Below are positions 9 to 5,210 of a DNA stretch of 25,525 bases, in pieces. The notes under the pieces are model-generated. The model had not been told where the DNA came from. It was given only the letters and a program-made list of their open reading frames with translations, and made no database searches. Position numbers and translations under genes: made by a program. Origin of the DNA: a virus; IMG/VR virus record IMGVR_UViG_3300042914_001627, positions 1 through 25,525 of that record; one strand, 5' to 3'. The stretch's first letter is position 1; the number at the start of each line of letters is the position of its first letter.

Positions 9-332
9 ATGTTCACAACCGATATTGCACGTTGGAAAAATAACCAACGCGAAGCGGTGATGATACTCGCGCCTAATTTCATTGCGAAGTTTTATGAACT
101 GGAAGCGGTGAACGATGACTGCTGGACCGATGAACAATGGAAACAATGGAAGTTCGCAGCGCGATTTCAAGTCATCGAAGATTTGCATCTGACAAAAACG
201 CGATTGGAGCGCATGAACAAAGATGAAAAACTTTCCTTTAATCAATCAGTTCAAAAAGAGTTGATGCGTAAGTTATATGCGGACATCATGGATAGCACGA
301 TTTTACAGCAACGAATTATTGATAAGTTATGA
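9..332 (+). CDS. Unknown phage protein, possibly 5' truncated by the window edge
   Basis: I do not recognise this 107-residue protein. It is hydrophilic, charged and probably all-helical, rich in Trp, Lys and Glu, with no membrane segment and no obvious motif. The reading frame is open to the left edge, so the ATG at 9 may be internal. A purine-rich GGAAAG lies just before it and makes it a plausible true start. Its stop overlaps the next ATG as ATGA, and the following two genes are coupled in the same way, so it is the first visible member of a tight cluster leading to the terminase. That position would suit a packaging accessory protein, but this is inference from place only. Confidence 0.7.
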   Translation: MFTTDIARWKNNQREAVMILAPNFIAKFYELEAVNDDCWTDEQWKQWKFAARFQVIEDLHLTKTRLERMNKDEKLSFNQSVQKELMRKLYADIMDSTILQQRIIDKL

Positions 333-499
333 CAGCGTGTGGATGTGAAGTAAAGAAAAAAGATGCGTTCAAATGCACTGGATGCAACCAAACTTTTTGC
401 GGAAAACATATCTACTATTATATAGATGAAGCCAACATTGCCATCACTCGAAATTCAAGACCTTATTGTGAACCTTGTTATAAAATCAAATACAAATGA
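329..499 (+). CDS. Small zinc-ribbon-like protein (56 aa)
   Basis: This short gene starts inside the stop of its upstream neighbour (ATGA) and itself ends in an ATGA overlap with the next gene, which supports it as a real member of the cluster. The product holds Cys4, Cys6, Cys16, Cys19, Cys24, His27, Cys47 and Cys50. The CxxC, CxxxxCxxH and C-terminal CEPC spacings suggest one or two zinc sites, as in small treble-clef or B-box-like fingers. I cannot assign a family. A nucleic-acid or protein-binding role is the usual expectation for such folds. Lying just before the terminase, it could help packaging, but nothing in the sequence proves this. Confidence 0.7.
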   Translation: MTACGCEVKKKDAFKCTGCNQTFCGKHIYYYIDEANIAITRNSRPYCEPCYKIKYK

Positions 500-642
500 A
501 AACATATAACGTACGCTTTGAATTGTATGGTAAAAAATATCACATCAAAAAACAATGTGATAATGAAAACCTACTGAAGCAATTGATACGAATGGATATA
601 ATCTTTACTCAAATAAATGAAATACCATCAGAAACAAATTGA
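496..642 (+). CDS. Small hypothetical protein (48 aa)
   Basis: Unrecognised basic protein beginning MKTYNVRFELYGKKYHIKK, which looks like a short beta-hairpin followed by a helix. It starts in an ATGA overlap with the zinc-ribbon gene. Its 3' end overlaps the terminase N-terminal remnant (start 617) by 26 bases. Translational coupling on both sides is the main evidence that it is real. No function can be given. Confidence 0.6.
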   Translation: MKTYNVRFELYGKKYHIKKQCDNENLLKQLIRMDIIFTQINEIPSETN

Positions 643-742
643 TGCTCTCAATCTACTAGCCATTGATAATGATTGCAGGCAGTTGTTATATGGTGGAAGT
701 TGTTTATATCTTTTATCCATTGGATGCTCAACCAAAGTGTAA
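617..742 (+). pseudogene. Remnant of a resident terL: N-terminus cut at the Walker A motif
   Basis: A 41-codon frame starting MKYHQKQIDAL. Residues 6-27 (KQIDAL...LLYGG) match residues 10-31 of the intact TerL downstream (KQIQAL...ILYGG) at 14 of 22 positions. By hand alignment the DNA is only about 64% identical (44 of 69 bases). The similarity stops after YGGS, exactly where Walker A should continue; 13 unrelated codons and a stop follow. The frame overlaps the upstream gene by 26 bases, as a functional terL start would in this cluster. The HNH gene begins at the next base after the stop. I read it as the 5' end of an older terL displaced by an HNH plus terL unit. A translated leader or immunity-like peptide is a less likely alternative. 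Confidence 0.75.
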
Positions 743-1336
743 ATGATGTATTTTAGTTCTATGAATTACACATTAAATCAATTGAGTATTGCATTGGATG
801 CTATGCCTAACGAGGAATGGAGATACGTTCCCAACACAAACAACCGTTATTTAGTTAGCAATATGGGTAGACTATTGACAACTGGTTATAGAGGATCAAC
901 TAAATGCTCCATTATGAAACCTGCAAAAGATGCTAATGGATATTACCGCACTATGTTATTGATAAATGGTAAATTTAAAACTATTAAAGTGCATCGTATT
1001 GTTGCTCAAACGTGGATTGAGAACCCATTAAATAAATTACAAGTTAATCATATTGATTTTGTGCGTGACAATAATCAGATAACTAATTTGGAATGGGCTA
1101 CACCAAAAGAAAATGCAATGCATTCTTATTTGAGTGGAAGAATTAAAAAACCAATATGCACAAATTTTGTAAAAGGTTCAAAGGTTGGAACTGCTAAACT
1201 GAATGAAGAACAAGTCATTGAAATTCGTTCAAAATTTAAACCTAGAATTTATACAAGAGAAATGTTAGCGAAGGAATATGGAGTAAGTCCTCATACTATA
1301 AAAGATGTAATTTTAAGGAGATGGCAACACATATAA
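743..1336 (+). CDS. NUMOD4/HNH homing endonuclease
   Basis: The 197-residue product has the order typical of free-standing phage homing endonucleases. A NUMOD4-like segment (about residues 24-48, EEWRYVPNTNNRYLVSNMG) is followed by an HNH_3-type nuclease core (about 80-124) with VHRIVA, NHIDFVRDNN and NLEWATPKEN; His84, His103 and nearby Asn residues are the likely catalytic and metal residues. A C-terminal helix-turn-helix (about 148-193, with YGVSPHTIKDVI) should bind DNA. Internal starts at 746 and 761 are possible. The 3' end overlaps the start of terL by 16 bases, so HNH and terL behave as one unit. Directly upstream is the terminase remnant broken at Walker A, which suggests that the enzyme targets terL at these conserved codons. 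Confidence 0.9.
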   Translation: MMYFSSMNYTLNQLSIALDAMPNEEWRYVPNTNNRYLVSNMGRLLTTGYRGSTKCSIMKPAKDANGYYRTMLLINGKFKTIKVHRIVAQTWIENPLNKLQVNHIDFVRDNNQITNLEWATPKENAMHSYLSGRIKKPICTNFVKGSKVGTAKLNEEQVIEIRSKFKPRIYTREMLAKEYGVSPHTIKDVILRRWQHI

Positions 1337-2622
1337 AATATAATCCAAAACAAATTCAAGCGTTAGATTATTTATCAATAGAAAATGATGCTAAACAAAT
1401 TTTATATGGCGGAGCTGCATCAGGTGGAAAGTCATTTCTCGGTTGTGATTGGCAAATTAAACGGAGGTTGAAATATCCAGGCACACGCGGATTAATCGGA
1501 AGATCAGAACTTAAAAAACTGCGCCTTTCAACAATGGCAACGTTCTTCGAATTATGTGCGATGTATGGATTAAACCCCGATAAACATTGGACATATAATG
1601 GACAAGACCACGTGATTAAGTTCTTCAATGGCAGCCAAATTATCTTAATGGATTTAGCCGATTTACCGAGTGATCCCGAATTTCAACGATTTGGTAGTAT
1701 TGAATTAACGGATGCGTTTGTTGATGAAGCAGGGGAAGTAAGTCAAAAATGTATTGACATCCTTTCATCGCGTTTGCGTTATAAGTTAATCAATGACAAA
1801 CCGAAATTACTAATGACCTGTAATCCGCATAAAGGTTGGTTATACAATGAATTCTTCGATGCGCAAAGGAATGGCACAATAAGGAAAGATAGGCGGTTTA
1901 TACAGGCATTACCAACGGATAACCCCCACGTTTCAGAAGTGTATTTAGAATCATTGCAAATGCTTCCAATCATTGACCGCAAACGATTACTCGAAGGCGA
2001 TTGGGATTACGATGAGACAAAAGATAGATTGTACAATTACGATGACTTACTGCGATGCTTCCGCGCTCCACAAATCAACGCTAACAATGATGCGTTCATT
2101 ACTGCCGACATTGCGCGAATGGGAGACGATAGGACGGTTATCGTGTTGTGGAATGGATTACACGCGTCAAAGTTTATCGTGTTAAAACAAAAGCCAATTA
2201 ATGAAGTGGTGGACACAATCAACCAACTCGCACAATCGAATAACGTGAGATTGTCTAACGTATTATGCGATGAAGATGGGATTGGTGGCGGTGCTGTTGA
2301 CTTCCTCAAATGCAAGGGATTTTTGAATGGATCAAAAGCGGTGCGAGATAATTATATGAATCTCAAAGCGGATTGTTATTTTAAACTTGGTGAACTCATT
2401 ACCACCAATGCAATCACATTTGAAACCACGCACAAAGATACCATTGTTAAGGAACTGGAGATGATTAGACGTGAGAAAATAGATAGTGATGGAAAGCTGC
2501 GCGTAACTAACAAAGAAACGCTTCAAAAGAAGTACGGCATTAGTCCCGATTTCGCTGATGCGATAATGATGCGGTGCTTCTATGAACTCAAAAAGAATTA
2601 TGGCAAATATGCATTTGGTTAA
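1321..2622 (+). CDS. terL: Terminase large subunit (ATPase-nuclease)
   Basis: Full-length TerL (433 aa), the packaging motor and headful or cos nuclease acting at the portal. The ATPase half has Walker A GGAASGGKS (30-38), Walker B FVDEAGE (133-139) and a coupling motif MTCNP (165-169). The RNase H-like nuclease half has TADIARMGDDRT (Asp263, Asp269/270), LCDEDGIGGG (Asp317/319) and PDFADA (Asp410/413). AAGGAG lies directly against the ATG, too close for a standard ribosome site, so translation may depend on coupling to the overlapping HNH gene. The first 31 residues duplicate the remnant at 617-742. It lies on the + strand, facing the rest of the structural genes. Confidence 0.95.
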   Translation: MATHIKYNPKQIQALDYLSIENDAKQILYGGAASGGKSFLGCDWQIKRRLKYPGTRGLIGRSELKKLRLSTMATFFELCAMYGLNPDKHWTYNGQDHVIKFFNGSQIILMDLADLPSDPEFQRFGSIELTDAFVDEAGEVSQKCIDILSSRLRYKLINDKPKLLMTCNPHKGWLYNEFFDAQRNGTIRKDRRFIQALPTDNPHVSEVYLESLQMLPIIDRKRLLEGDWDYDETKDRLYNYDDLLRCFRAPQINANNDAFITADIARMGDDRTVIVLWNGLHASKFIVLKQKPINEVVDTINQLAQSNNVRLSNVLCDEDGIGGGAVDFLKCKGFLNGSKAVRDNYMNLKADCYFKLGELITTNAITFETTHKDTIVKELEMIRREKIDSDGKLRVTNKETLQKKYGISPDFADAIMMRCFYELKKNYGKYAFG

Positions 2623-2632
2623 ATTATTTTAA

Positions 2633-2640
2633 TATATTTG
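2633..2640 (+). promoter_or_regulatory. Bacteroidetes-type -7 box (TATATTTG)
   Basis: Matches the TAnnTTTG consensus and lies 19 bases before the ATG at 2660, with an A-rich leader between. A TTG at 2615-2617 is a possible -33 element, but the 15-base spacing is shorter than usual. It would drive the four small genes after terL. Confidence 0.5.
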
Positions 2641-2659
2641 AAATCTAAAACAAAACAAA

Positions 2660-2890
2660 ATGGAAAACAAAAAACAAAGTAGTGTTGAGTGGTTAATTGA
2701 TGAACTATGGAATACACCCAAAGACAAATTTGAATGGCACTCAATCTTGAGAAAAGCCAAAGCAATGCACAAGGAGGAGATTAAGGATGCTTGGAATGAT
2801 GGACATACTGAAGGAATGGAGGGTGGATATTCTGGTACTTATGAAGAATACTACAAAGAAACATTTGGAGGACAAGACAATGAGAACTGA
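2660..2890 (+). CDS. Conserved small phage protein of unknown function (76 aa)
   Basis: Acidic, helical protein beginning MENKKQSSVEWLIDELWN, with a central stretch AKAMHKEEIKDAWNDG. I have a sense of this pattern (SSVEWL near the start, a mid KA-M--EEI-DA-N-G block) recurring in small phage proteins, but no function is known to me. The start at 2660 follows a promoter-like box and an A-rich leader. Its 3' end contains GGAGG (2867-2871), which sits 8 bases before the next ATG, and the two genes overlap by 11 bases. Confidence 0.8.
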   Translation: MENKKQSSVEWLIDELWNTPKDKFEWHSILRKAKAMHKEEIKDAWNDGHTEGMEGGYSGTYEEYYKETFGGQDNEN

Positions 2891-3170
2891 AATTATTGAA
2901 TGGGCGAATGAACGCGGATTATTGACTGCGGATAATGCCAATAAACAAATGCTTAAATTAGTTGAAGAAGTTGGTGAGTTATCCAGTGCGATTTTAAAAA
3001 ACAAATCATTAGAAATCGCAGATGCAATTGGTGATATTCAAGTAGTGCTAATCATATTATCAGAGCAGTTAGGTTATGATTATGATTCTTGTTTAGAGGA
3101 TGCCTACAATACAATTAAGAATAGAAAAGGAAAAACAATTAACGGAATTTTTATCAAAGATGAAAACTGA
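2880..3170 (+). CDS. MazG-like nucleotide pyrophosphohydrolase
   Basis: A 96-residue single-domain MazG-like protein. The MazG metal-binding pattern is visible: VEEVGEL (Glu29, Glu30, Glu33) on the first helix and IADAIGD (Asp48, Asp52) on the next. MazG-type enzymes hydrolyse NTPs or dNTPs to the monophosphate plus pyrophosphate, cleaning nucleotide pools; in phages they may also affect (p)ppGpp signalling. I chose ATG 2880 over an upstream in-frame ATG (2787) because GGAGG lies 8 bases before it and the longer frame would run through the preceding gene. It overlaps the next gene by 11 bases. Confidence 0.88.
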   Translation: MRTEIIEWANERGLLTADNANKQMLKLVEEVGELSSAILKNKSLEIADAIGDIQVVLIILSEQLGYDYDSCLEDAYNTIKNRKGKTINGIFIKDEN

Positions 3171-3507
3171 AATAACAAAAGACGAATTAGAAAAAGTAAA
3201 GGTGTTAAACCTATTGATGTGGTTACAAGCGTCCATCTACGCAGGTGATGAATGCGAACCAATCAAATGGTTTTACAATCACCAAACAAAGATGTTACTC
3301 AAACGACTTAACGACTCAATCCAACGTGAACACGGCAAGACAATCACCGCGTTATGGAATACCGATGGTGCAATACTCCCCGATATAACTCGCCAAATTG
3401 ATGACTTCACGTTTGAAATGGCAAGTTATGGCTACTGGATGTTACCGGAACTAACTGAGTACATCCGCAAACAAAAAGAAACACAACCAAAAATTGAAGT
3501 AATATGA
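3160..3507 (+). CDS. Hypothetical protein (115 aa)
   Basis: Unrecognised, mostly helical protein starting MKTEITKDELEKVKVLN, with no membrane segment or catalytic motif that I can name. The ATG at 3160 is preferred over an in-frame ATG at 3100 because it keeps the overlap with the mazG-like gene to 11 bases. It ends in an ATGA overlap with the next gene. Its place between two nucleotide-hydrolase-like genes hints at nucleotide metabolism, but this is weak inference. Confidence 0.75.
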   Translation: MKTEITKDELEKVKVLNLLMWLQASIYAGDECEPIKWFYNHQTKMLLKRLNDSIQREHGKTITALWNTDGAILPDITRQIDDFTFEMASYGYWMLPELTEYIRKQKETQPKIEVI

Positions 3508-3716
3508 ATATCACACACGATTTTGATAACTGCCAAAGCGAGACATACAAAGAAGTAATTACTGATCTAATCTCACGCGAGAAAATGGGACGAATGAAGT
3601 ACGGAGTAACGGTGGACAAAGCTAATTTGAGTGAACAGGAATGGTTACACCACGCTTACGAAGAAGCATTGGATTTTGCTATCTATTTAAAACGTATAAT
3701 GAAGTTAAAAAAATGA
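3504..3716 (+). CDS. Small protein with a phage nucleotide-hydrolase-like KYG/W--HA pattern (70 aa)
   Basis: The sequence has ISREKMGRMKYGVTVDK followed by LSEQEWLHHAYEEALDFAIYL. The pattern R..-KYG...-L-E-EWL-HA-EE--D---YL resembles small phage proteins related to MazG-like or dATP/dGTP-diphosphohydrolase N-terminal domains, where the acidic and His residues lie on an all-alpha bundle. Domain naming is from memory and not certain. It is coupled to its upstream gene by ATGA and is the last gene of the + strand block. Its last 38 bases overlap, tail to tail, the 3' end of the gene at 3679-4056 on the other strand. Confidence 0.8.
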   Translation: MNITHDFDNCQSETYKEVITDLISREKMGRMKYGVTVDKANLSEQEWLHHAYEEALDFAIYLKRIMKLKK

Positions 3717-4056
3717 CATTAACACCAACCGAATAAAGAGTGGCCTTGCGCCACTTTTTTTTTCTCTTTATTTCCTCACTTAATCTCTCGTTTAATTCCT
3801 TATTTAACCCCTCGATTTGCACGATATAAACGGCATTACGCTCGTTAATCTCGTTTAGTGAATGATTCATCCTACTTAATTTTTTATTGTCGCTAATCAA
3901 ATAATCGAGTTTAGCAACTGCCAATACAACCAACCGCTTTTCTTTACTTATCGAATCCAGTGCGCTCGTAATCGCGTAGCTTTTCAATTGCTTTTGTGTA
4001 TGCGCTATCAATGGCAATAGAATCATAAAGGTAAATAGTATCAATTTGCTTTTCAT
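3679..4056 (-). CDS. Spanin-like protein: signal sequence, coiled coil, C-terminal membrane helix
   Basis: The 125-residue product starts with a signal-like segment (KLILFTFMILLPLIAHTQ, residues 4-21). A long charged helical region of coiled-coil character follows, with many Asn, Glu, Lys and Leu, and the protein ends in a hydrophobic helix (about 106-122) after a basic KRKKKWRK. The order (exported N-terminus, periplasmic coil, C-terminal helix) is that of a unispanin, but there is no lipobox Cys. The basic patch before the last helix is also unexpected for that topology. It begins 113 bases inside the preceding gene in another frame, as Rz1 does with Rz. It carries the opposing terminator within its last codons. 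The lysis role is inferred from architecture and place. Confidence 0.72.
   Translation of the reverse strand: MKSKLILFTFMILLPLIAHTQKQLKSYAITSALDSISKEKRLVVLAVAKLDYLISDNKKLSRMNHSLNEINERNAVYIVQIEGLNKELNERLSEEIKRKKKWRKATLYSVGVNVIFLTSLYVLNR
3739..3763 (+). terminator. Intrinsic terminator of the + strand block
   Basis: AGTGGC (3739-3744) and GCCACT (3750-3755) form a 6-bp stem with a 5-base loop, followed by a run of nine T (3755-3763). An outer AATAAAGAG/CTCTTTATT arm surrounds it. It lies 22 bases after the last + strand gene and inside the coding region of the opposing gene 3679-4056. Confidence 0.85.
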
Positions 4057-4237
4057 AAATCTCTTTTATTTTGATGCGTTCTTTTTCTATCGTGTCAATT
4101 CGTGCTTTCAATACGATAACCGTATCTGAGGTGGTTACAATTTGTAACCGATTGGAATTGGATGAATTTTTCCCAATAATGAATGCAATAATTAACCCAA
4201 CTGCAAATGCAATCCATTTAATATAACTGTCCTTCAT
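3944..4237 (-). CDS. Rz-like inner-membrane spanin candidate (97 aa)
   Basis: One N-terminal membrane helix (about residues 7-22, KWIAFAVGLIIAFIIG) is followed by a soluble, heptad-rich region with repeated IDTI, KERIKIKEIYEK and YTKAIEKL. This is the usual shape of an i-spanin: anchored in the inner membrane with a periplasmic coiled coil. It overlaps the phosphoesterase gene by 20 bases and its own 3' part overlaps the next gene by 113 bases out of frame. With holin and endolysin upstream, this placement supports a role in outer-membrane disruption. Sequence similarity alone would not identify it. Confidence 0.7.
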   Translation of the reverse strand: MKDSYIKWIAFAVGLIIAFIIGKNSSNSNRLQIVTTSDTVIVLKARIDTIEKERIKIKEIYEKQIDTIYLYDSIAIDSAYTKAIEKLRDYERTGFDK

Positions 4238-5210
4238 TGATTCGGTAATTTTTAACGTGAAATGCTTTATTTAATCCGCGCGTAACTATCGCGAATCCGT
4301 GATTGTATTTTGAGTAAGGATTGTAATCAGGTGAAAGTTCAGATAAACACCCCACCCCCCAACACGTTATCACCTTTCCATTAACATCGCGCTCGGTGTG
4401 TTCTGCTGTTTGGTGATGGTGGCCGCACATCGCATTCGCTTTCGTCTTGAGAAACAACCCACGCGCCACGTTAACGCTCGGTAAAAATTGCTTTCCAAAT
4501 TCGTGGCCGTGAAATATCGATAGGCCGCCAATGTTTAATTTGCTTTTTCCATCCAACCATTTGATGTTATGCTTATCGCAGTGAGTGAGCGTTGGAAAAT
4601 CGAATGCATCAATGTCGAATAATTCCGGTGCTTTCACCCTCATATATCTCCAATATCTTTCTTCGTGGTTGCCTTCTTTGTAAACGATTTCAGCGTTTGG
4701 AAATTGCCCTCTCAACTCGTGTAAAAATGTACGCATTGCATAGAGTTCATCCTTAAATTTTCTCTTCTTTGGATCTTTGACAAAATCACTAATCATATGA
4801 CAATCGAGAGCGTCTCCATTCAATACAACCGTATCAACTCCCTCATCGATTCCTGTTTGGATTGCTACGGATAGCGCGTCAATGTCGTGATATGGTATGT
4901 GAATATCCGATAAGATTAAAACTTTTTGCCCTTTAATATCAAAATGCTTTCGACCTTTCGCGTATGATTTCGGCAGGTTGAATGGGTTGCGTGGACGATG
5001 TTCAGTAATGACCAGTGTTTTGTCTTTTGGAGTTCTACCATCTTTGCCCTCGATTCTACGCAGTGCATCACGAGCATCTTCAACCCCTAAAAAAGTTTCA
5101 AAATGTTCTTTGCTTAATTTCTTTGCGAGAGTTAGCGTTGGTGTGTTTGGAAATCGTGCGCGAAGTTCACGCGCTAATTTTGTTTTGTCTGATTCCTTTC
5201 GTCCTTTCAT
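4218..5210 (-). CDS. Calcineurin-like metallophosphoesterase
   Basis: The 330-residue protein has all the blocks of the two-metal phosphoesterase fold: LSDIHIP (Asp102, His104), LNGDALD (Gly132, Asp133), EGNHEER (Asn181, His182, Glu183), FHGHEF (His234, His236) and CGHHHQ (His264, His266). The first 60 residues form a separate small helical domain with TLTLAKKLSKE, possibly DNA binding. Substrate is unknown; relatives act on phosphodiesters of nucleic acids or nucleotides. It starts 3 bases after the endolysin stop and overlaps the spanin candidate, so it sits within the lysis block. That place is odd for an enzyme of DNA metabolism. Confidence 0.9.
   Translation of the reverse strand: MKGRKESDKTKLARELRARFPNTPTLTLAKKLSKEHFETFLGVEDARDALRRIEGKDGRTPKDKTLVITEHRPRNPFNLPKSYAKGRKHFDIKGQKVLILSDIHIPYHDIDALSVAIQTGIDEGVDTVVLNGDALDCHMISDFVKDPKKRKFKDELYAMRTFLHELRGQFPNAEIVYKEGNHEERYWRYMRVKAPELFDIDAFDFPTLTHCDKHNIKWLDGKSKLNIGGLSIFHGHEFGKQFLPSVNVARGLFLKTKANAMCGHHHQTAEHTERDVNGKVITCWGVGCLSELSPDYNPYSKYNHGFAIVTRGLNKAFHVKNYRINEGQLY

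Follow-up and report, generated by a model that had tools for sequence, protein, structure and literature searches.

Organization of the terL locus

The window analysed here is the whole 25,525-nt stretch of IMG/VR virus record IMGVR_UViG_3300042914_001627, to which all coordinates refer. It contains an intact terL gene preceded by a gene for an HNH protein, which is itself preceded by a remnant of a second terL start, here called the stub (Table 1). The window TerL was used to scan IMG/VR, which yielded 80 close loci.

Table 1. Features of the window terL locus, and related loci with an interrupted or intein-containing P-loop
Feature	Position or contigs	Strand	Basis
48-aa resident gene	496..642	+	3' end overlaps the old terL start; same position before intact terL in HNH-free sisters
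terL stub MKYHQKQIDALNLLAIDNDCRQLLYGGS, first 28 resident codons, cut inside the Walker A codons	617..700	+	Identity to HNH-free sisters
Cassette leader	701..760	+	Sharp left border at about 700/701; holds the stop of the stub frame (740-742)
HNH homing endonuclease gene (predicted); NUMOD4 at about 812-958, HNH_3 at about 1022-1120	761..1336	+	Pfam, AlphaFold2 model, relatives
Replacement (foreign) terL 5' end, first 27 codons; start codon within the HNH 3' end	1321..1401	+	Drop in DNA identity relative to flanks
Walker A segment LYGGAASGGKS, acquired along with the new 5' end; putative cleavage-resistant allele	1402..1438	+	Allele comparison
TerL body, resident	1439..2622	+	Clade identity; Pfam Terminase_3
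Walker A with stop and hairpin, 12 distinct contigs	L160/L378, L383, L387, L410, L411, L432, L437, L448, L449, L450, L453, L165
Out-of-frame HNH nested in TerL inteins at the P-loop	L102-L109, L111-L116, L144-L159, L168, L213

The stub lies in a frame of 41 codons (617-742) that ends with TAA, directly before an ATG at 743. Its translation matches the N-terminus of the window's own TerL (E = 9e-9, 50% identity over 32 amino acids (aa); 57% over 28 aa in a second comparison). The homology ends at about position 700, in the codons for L-Y-G-G-S, and the remaining 13 codons before the stop belong to the leader and are not terL-like. In the HNH-free sister loci L004, L005, L008 and others, 27 of 27 stub residues are identical to the start of an intact terL that continues through Walker A. 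The intact terL of HNH-free L001 has 96% of the 28 residues, with few differences, and the similarity ends at TATGGTGG, within the codons of Walker A. At the DNA level, identity to intact HNH-free genes reaches 96% (L034), 93% (L008) and 90% (L004). The HNH-free sisters have a 107-aa gene, often also 56- and 48-aa genes, and then an intact terL with the first residues of the stub; in L001, the homologue of the 48-aa gene (4880-5023) overlaps the terL start at 5001. By these comparisons the stub is the 5' end of the resident terL, left over. It is a fossil of the insertion, and pins the insertion point to within a few bases.

The leader and the HNH gene

At the left border of the leader, GGAAGT is immediately followed by TGTTTATATC. 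This border is the same in the window, L047, L054 and L085, and to the left of it each phage has its own terL start. L054 has an identical leader, and L047 and L085 have nearly identical ones, despite their differing stubs; in the L088 group (L088-L093 and L100) the leader is homologous but diverged. A scan with the leader motif gave no contigs beyond those already in the set. The HNH open reading frame spans 743-1336, but ATG 761 is conserved in relatives while ATG 743 is not, and the gene probably starts at the former.

Both Pfam domains of the HNH protein score above their cut-offs (HNH_3, 29.1 bits with a cut-off of 24.8; NUMOD4, 29.2 with a cut-off of 23.4), and N96-H97 and further core residues are invariant in 15 relatives. 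An AlphaFold2 model of the protein (mean predicted local distance difference test score of 85) matches I-HmuI (1u3e) with an E value of 6e-8, which is the sole match below 0.001. The gene is present at two of the 80 nearest terL loci (L047 and L054) and was not found at the other 78. By its domains, predicted fold and sporadic distribution, we take the protein to be an I-HmuI-like HNH homing endonuclease that presumably cleaves DNA.

Other functions of the HNH gene and the stub can be considered at this point. HNH genes that adjoin terL can serve packaging (PMC10448857, PMC12724721), so that the protein might be a packaging cofactor like HK97 gp74 or Skunavirus HrdP, with the stub as a harmless by-product. 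We rejected this as very unlikely, because the gene is too sporadic for such a role, is inserted inside terL, and has an I-HmuI-like predicted fold. Alternatively, the stub might be exon 1 of a self-splicing intron or of a trans-spliced gene, in which case the true TerL would be the stub plus the body, much as the first exon of ICP1 terL is short and adjoins a homing gene (PMC10448857). A scan of 480-1700 against Rfam, at E values up to 1, found no RNA family and no group I or group II intron, and the terL of the window is unbroken, with a start and an N-terminus of its own; we regard splicing as even less probable than a packaging role. An intein in the window was rejected because no Hint or splicing domain was found in the window proteins. 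Two further candidates for the frame at 617-742 were discarded. It is not an independent small gene, because it is the terL start in sister phages; and a role as a translational-coupling leader was set aside because the stop-ATG junction (740-745) is common to L047, L054 and L085 but not to the L088 group.

A first-pass annotation of this DNA, made from the letters alone, had described the frame at 617-742 as a copy of the TerL start that was left behind by a resident terL and that loses similarity inside the Walker A codons, and all of this agrees with the sister phages, including the uninterrupted terL that it had suggested looking for. It had also placed the HNH start right after the stub stop, at 743, which is less likely than 761, and had correctly given the HNH gene and terL an overlap of 16 bases (1321-1336). 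Its view that a recent tandem duplication is improbable also holds. Two homologous 5' ends that lie 700 nt apart could in principle come from a duplication of terL's own 5' end or from an assembly chimera. We give this almost no weight: the stub is nearer to the terL genes of other phages (up to 96% in DNA) than to the window's own (57% in protein), and contigs from other metagenomes have the same layout, which is therefore no product of assembly.

Carriers and transfer of the element

The arrangement of stub, HNH gene and new terL recurs in L047, L054, L085, L086, L088-L093 and L100. The HNH proteins of the window and L054 are 96% identical, and HNH identities are 95-96% where the terL bodies are only about 70% identical in DNA (i.e., about 30% different). 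The stubs, in contrast, follow their own lineages. The best HNH-free matches are 96% for the window stub and 94% each for those of L047 and L054 (the latter two to IxFHDKQ-type terLs), and the L085 stub is nearest to L023 and L026 (88%). The cassette of L085 is also present in L083 and L084, which lack a stub. Since leader and HNH gene are nearly identical while stubs and terL bodies differ, the sequences indicate that the HNH element is mobile and has been transferred between diverged genomes.

The amount of terL that accompanies the HNH gene varies. In L047 and L054, both flanks are of the IxFHDKQ lineage and the whole terL is of the L049 type; there the whole terL came with the HNH gene and the upstream flank stayed resident. 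The L088 group has HNH proteins that are 71-73% identical to that of the window. Five of its stubs (PYKPEYLPRQIEALN...LYGGAAG) match HNH-free P-type terLs (86-98%), while the terL after the HNH gene is of the Y-type (IIYHDKQK...LYGGGVFSGKS), with 90-98% identity to HNH-free Y-type genes in the new 5' end and 92-95% in the first half. This first half is just partly alignable to the P-type, and the second half is about equally like the P- and Y-types. Here a Y-type 5' half and the HNH gene were inserted into the Walker A of a P-type terL, so that at least the first half of terL (about 650 nt) came with the HNH gene, the upstream flank being resident.

Other carriers include L162, in which the stub KYKELYLTDKRYILV is followed by the HNH gene and a complete terL with GGRGSSKS (i.e., of another terL family), and L139, which has a decayed stub. 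Among isolated phages, the closest relatives of the window TerL have at best 44% identity (Flavobacterium phage 11b), and none of them serves as an empty site here. A search of cellular genomes for the HNH gene gave one close match, which is nested in an intein in a Flavobacterium metagenome-assembled genome (MAG; L213); the rest are more distant NUMOD4-HNH genes.

Mosaic structure of the window terL

The terL locus of the window is a mosaic, resident in its left flank and in the stub. Positions 1321-1401 have at most 64% DNA identity to any sampled terL, while the flanks reach 90-100%. The next segment, 1402-1438, is 97% identical to L047, L049, L051 and L058 and 83% identical to L001. From 1438 to 2034 the gene is about 90% identical to resident-clade terLs and 67-78% identical to L049, and 2035-4590 is 100% identical to HNH-free L001, with an identity that begins sharply at 2035. 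The change points between the window and ten sisters lie at 1402-1429. Compared with L054, positions 701-1320 have 96-100% identity in most 30-nt bins of the 5' part, and about 83% near the 3' end of the HNH gene. With the change points at Walker A and resident-type sequence from 1438 onward, the foreign piece ends just past the P-loop. On these grounds it is about 740 bp long (about 701-1438), consisting of the leader, the HNH gene, the first 27 terL codons and Walker A, and the terL body has not been replaced.

The first-pass annotation had proposed a larger event, in which a cassette of HNH gene and terL from elsewhere replaced the resident terL. The HNH gene and the new terL start are indeed foreign; the whole gene is not, as just described. 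A version of this proposal can still be formulated: the resident terL would have given way to the HNH gene and complete terL of a relative, and a second crossover, near 1438 or 2034, would later have brought back the resident-like body of the window. The sharp start of identity to L001 at 2035 and the larger imports in L047/L054 and the L088 group speak for such a course of events, and the proposal fits L047, L054 and the L088 group better than it fits the window. The resident-clade identity of 1438-2034 and the change points at Walker A speak against it, and for the window we consider it the less probable account, although one to be taken seriously.

The imported Walker A allele, AASGGKS, is present in five of six distinct carriers of the window clade and in six of 76 HNH-free terLs (Fisher test, 1e-4). 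It is plausible that this allele is a copy resistant to cleavage. It was probably transferred together with the cassette, and the allele count is thus not independent evidence of resistance.

The 2.5 kb of the window that are 100% identical to L001 (2035-4590) lie between flanks of mostly 75-95%, and by this contrast are the product of a very recent exchange. The HNH-free L001 and L004 are identical in the 3' part of terL and about 18% different around Walker A, which could mark a local conversion hotspot. The terL of L044 (4503-5745) is apparently split into residues 5-43 and 58-433, and lacks about 15 codons just past Walker A. Upstream of the locus, the 56-aa protein of the window (329-499) has a weak match to AN1-type zinc fingers (E = 4e-5, below the curated cut-off), and is often absent from sister phages.

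Relatives of the HNH gene at the same P-loop: inteins and split inteins

About 27 distinct relatives of the HNH gene lie inside terL at the same codons, within inserts that begin with C and end with HN and are located between GGSR and SGKS/T. Intein splicing regions flank the HNH gene in all five examples examined with Pfam and NCBIfam (L102, L103, L107, L111 and L113). In these relatives the HNH frame differs from the terL/intein frame, which is nevertheless open for about 190 codons in every one. In 14 intein-nested loci, none of 3000 synonymous shuffles is as open, and six free-standing relatives have 18-28 stops in the corresponding region. The intein frame and the nested HNH gene are therefore candidates for dual coding. 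A similar intein-nested HNH gene is present in another terminase (L163).

In two contigs (L167, 112-1842; L169, 1261-2681), the HNH gene is located between or beside the split-intein halves of a helicase-like gene, again at the P-loop. The junction in L167 reads GVPG, then C ... HN for the insert, then SGKST. These two cases resemble the split-intein "fractured genes" that were reportedly described by Dassa et al. in 2009, and we consider them candidates for that arrangement.

In the HNH tree, the window, L054 and L047 are grouped with full support, and L083/L085 are next. All stub and upstream forms of the window branch (20 rows; support 95/87) lie among the intein-nested HNHs when the tree is midpoint-rooted, and the window HNH possibly descends from an intein-nested form. 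The stub class as a whole might then derive from an arrangement with an intein or split intein (terL-N, intein, HNH, intein, terL-C), whose splicing domains were lost once a complete terL 5' end had been gained. This concerns the origin of the element and is compatible with a homing element that carries a replacement 5' end. The supported clade, the shared insertion codons and the split-intein relatives L167 and L169 favor it. The closest relatives, like the window, have no Hint residue, the tree depends on a midpoint root, and the bypass forms and most stop forms are placed across that root, all of which count against it. On balance we judge the chances of such an origin to be slightly short of even.

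Relatives of the HNH gene at the same P-loop: bypass-like and stop-interrupted terL genes

A different arrangement occurs in 12 distinct contigs of the terL family found with L160. In these, Walker A breaks off after GCTGCT (or GGA); a stop and a hairpin follow, in a gap of 40-43 nt, and Walker A resumes past a matched Ala (or Gly) codon. The stop occurs within two codons of the take-off site. When the gap is removed, the protein reads YGGAAGGGKS, which is the same as in uninterrupted relatives. Nine aligned gaps form a 10-bp stem that is 97.8% paired, with both-sided changes at four pairs, and none of 500 shuffles reaches its covariation score. The HNH gene is directly upstream in 9 of 14 interrupted rows (seven of the 12 distinct contigs), as against 0 of 67 uninterrupted ones. 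From their sequences, the interrupted terLs are candidates for translational bypass of the kind known from T4 gene 60.

Other interruptions of the same codons are simpler. L301 (3010-3030) and L302, which have an identical stretch, contain an in-frame TGA inside Walker A (GGT TGA GGC) that resembles a stop-hop. L273 (670-690), from a Clostridium MAG, has an in-frame TGA in Walker A in the context TAT GGT GGA TGA CGA GCC. At the same Walker A codons, L110 (1680-1700), L161 (4085-4100) and L164 (4045-4060) combine a stop with a frame change of 2 nt; the HNH gene is just upstream, and in these three we suspect a programmed shift or a short hop.

A common interpretation of these loci is that one HNH family attacking the P-loop codons of terminases has found several separate ways to sit in an essential gene and leave it functional: with a regrown 5' end, out of frame in an intein, between split-intein halves, or upstream of a terL that has a bypass hairpin or a stop in its cut site. 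The bypass forms would then be many natural hops like that of gene 60, tied to homing. We lean toward this interpretation, by a small degree.

Proposed mechanism

We think it highly probable that the window contains a mobile homing-endonuclease element that targets the P-loop codons of terL and supplies the broken gene with a replacement 5' end. This reading follows from the exact left border in Walker A, the resident stub, the near-identity of leader and HNH gene among terLs that differ by about 30%, the foreign 5' end and Walker A segment that make terL complete again, and the resident-type sequence just after Walker A. In a co-infected cell, the HNH enzyme would cut or nick the resident terL at the Walker A codons. 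The right broken end would then be copied leftward from the donor terL, through the new 5' end and the HNH gene, and the left end would be joined at the break, or by stub homology once the donor has a stub. The new Walker A allele would escape cutting, so that the product would be stable and TerL functional.

Several points weigh against this reading, or against its simplest form. We infer the cutting at Walker A, the resistance of the allele and the route of repair from sequence comparison, and for the resistance of the new Walker A allele the evidence consists solely of the allele association. The new 5' ends of the window and L054 are just 63% alike, while their HNH genes are mostly 96-100% identical in the 5' halves and about 83% at the 3' ends; a single, simple co-transfer is thus insufficient, and one has to assume later recombination within the HNH gene, or repeated donors. 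No donor of the window's 5' end was found among the sampled terLs, which have at most 64% DNA identity to it. Finally, terL starts have also been exchanged among HNH-free phages (L020, L023 and L026), with breakpoints close to Walker A, and some of the exchange at Walker A may not involve the enzyme, or may reflect elements that have since been lost.

Comparison with known systems

The closest analogs are the mobile open reading frames of fungal mitochondria, which bring replacement gene ends into Allomyces atp6 and into Glomus atp6, atp9, cox2 and nad3 (PMC3630166). As in the window, an endonuclease gene is located in a conserved gene, a foreign end is carried along, and the native end is kept as a remnant; the divergence is also similar, at 63.5% between the two atp6 ends (PMC3630166). 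They differ from the window in that the 3' rather than the 5' end is replaced, the enzymes are of the LAGLIDADG or GIY-YIG rather than the HNH type, and the setting is mitochondrial rather than the P-loop of a phage gene. By analogy, the window element would work like the Allomyces and Glomus elements without being a member of that group.

Among phages, the seg and mob genes of T4 encode free-standing endonucleases with intronless homing (PMC2988022). They share with the window element a free-standing gene that presumably spreads by cutting and repair. Most of them are located between genes and have distant cut sites, and the insertions of mobE and mobA split a gene, whereas in the window the gene is restored with a second 5' end at the presumed cut site. 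I-HmuI, with which the window HNH has a common predicted fold, is encoded in an intron, and the window has none. Inteins in the P-loop of TerL are known (PMC5050341) and have the same target, but the window lacks a Hint domain. In ShiLan, an HNH gene without a splicing domain is inserted out of frame (PMC11855218); as in the wider HNH family, its frame is not that of the host gene, and the relatives described here add a Hint intein that ShiLan does not have.

In T4 gene 60, a bypassed insert lies beside the homing endonuclease gene mobA and is thought to protect from cleavage (PMC5009743, PMC2988022). L160, L165, L449 and others likewise have an HNH gene beside a stop-interrupted gene with a stem-loop and matched codons. 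In these relatives the gene is terL, the gap is 40-43 nt and bypass is predicted from the sequence; the window itself has no such gap. In the open-access papers searched, we found no phage element reported to rebuild the 5' end of the gene it targets, and no precedent for gene-end replacement in a phage.

Implications

Beside introns and inteins, the window element points to another general way for a selfish endonuclease to reside in an essential phage gene at its most conserved codons, namely by supplying a new front end. The occurrence of several lineages, matched empty sites and two terL families makes the model directly testable. Such elements may account for the swapping of about the first 30 terL codons, with junctions at Walker A, between phages that are otherwise alike. 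In addition, the related loci are candidates for natural ribosome bypassing, of which few cases are known, and for dual-coded intein-HNH genes.
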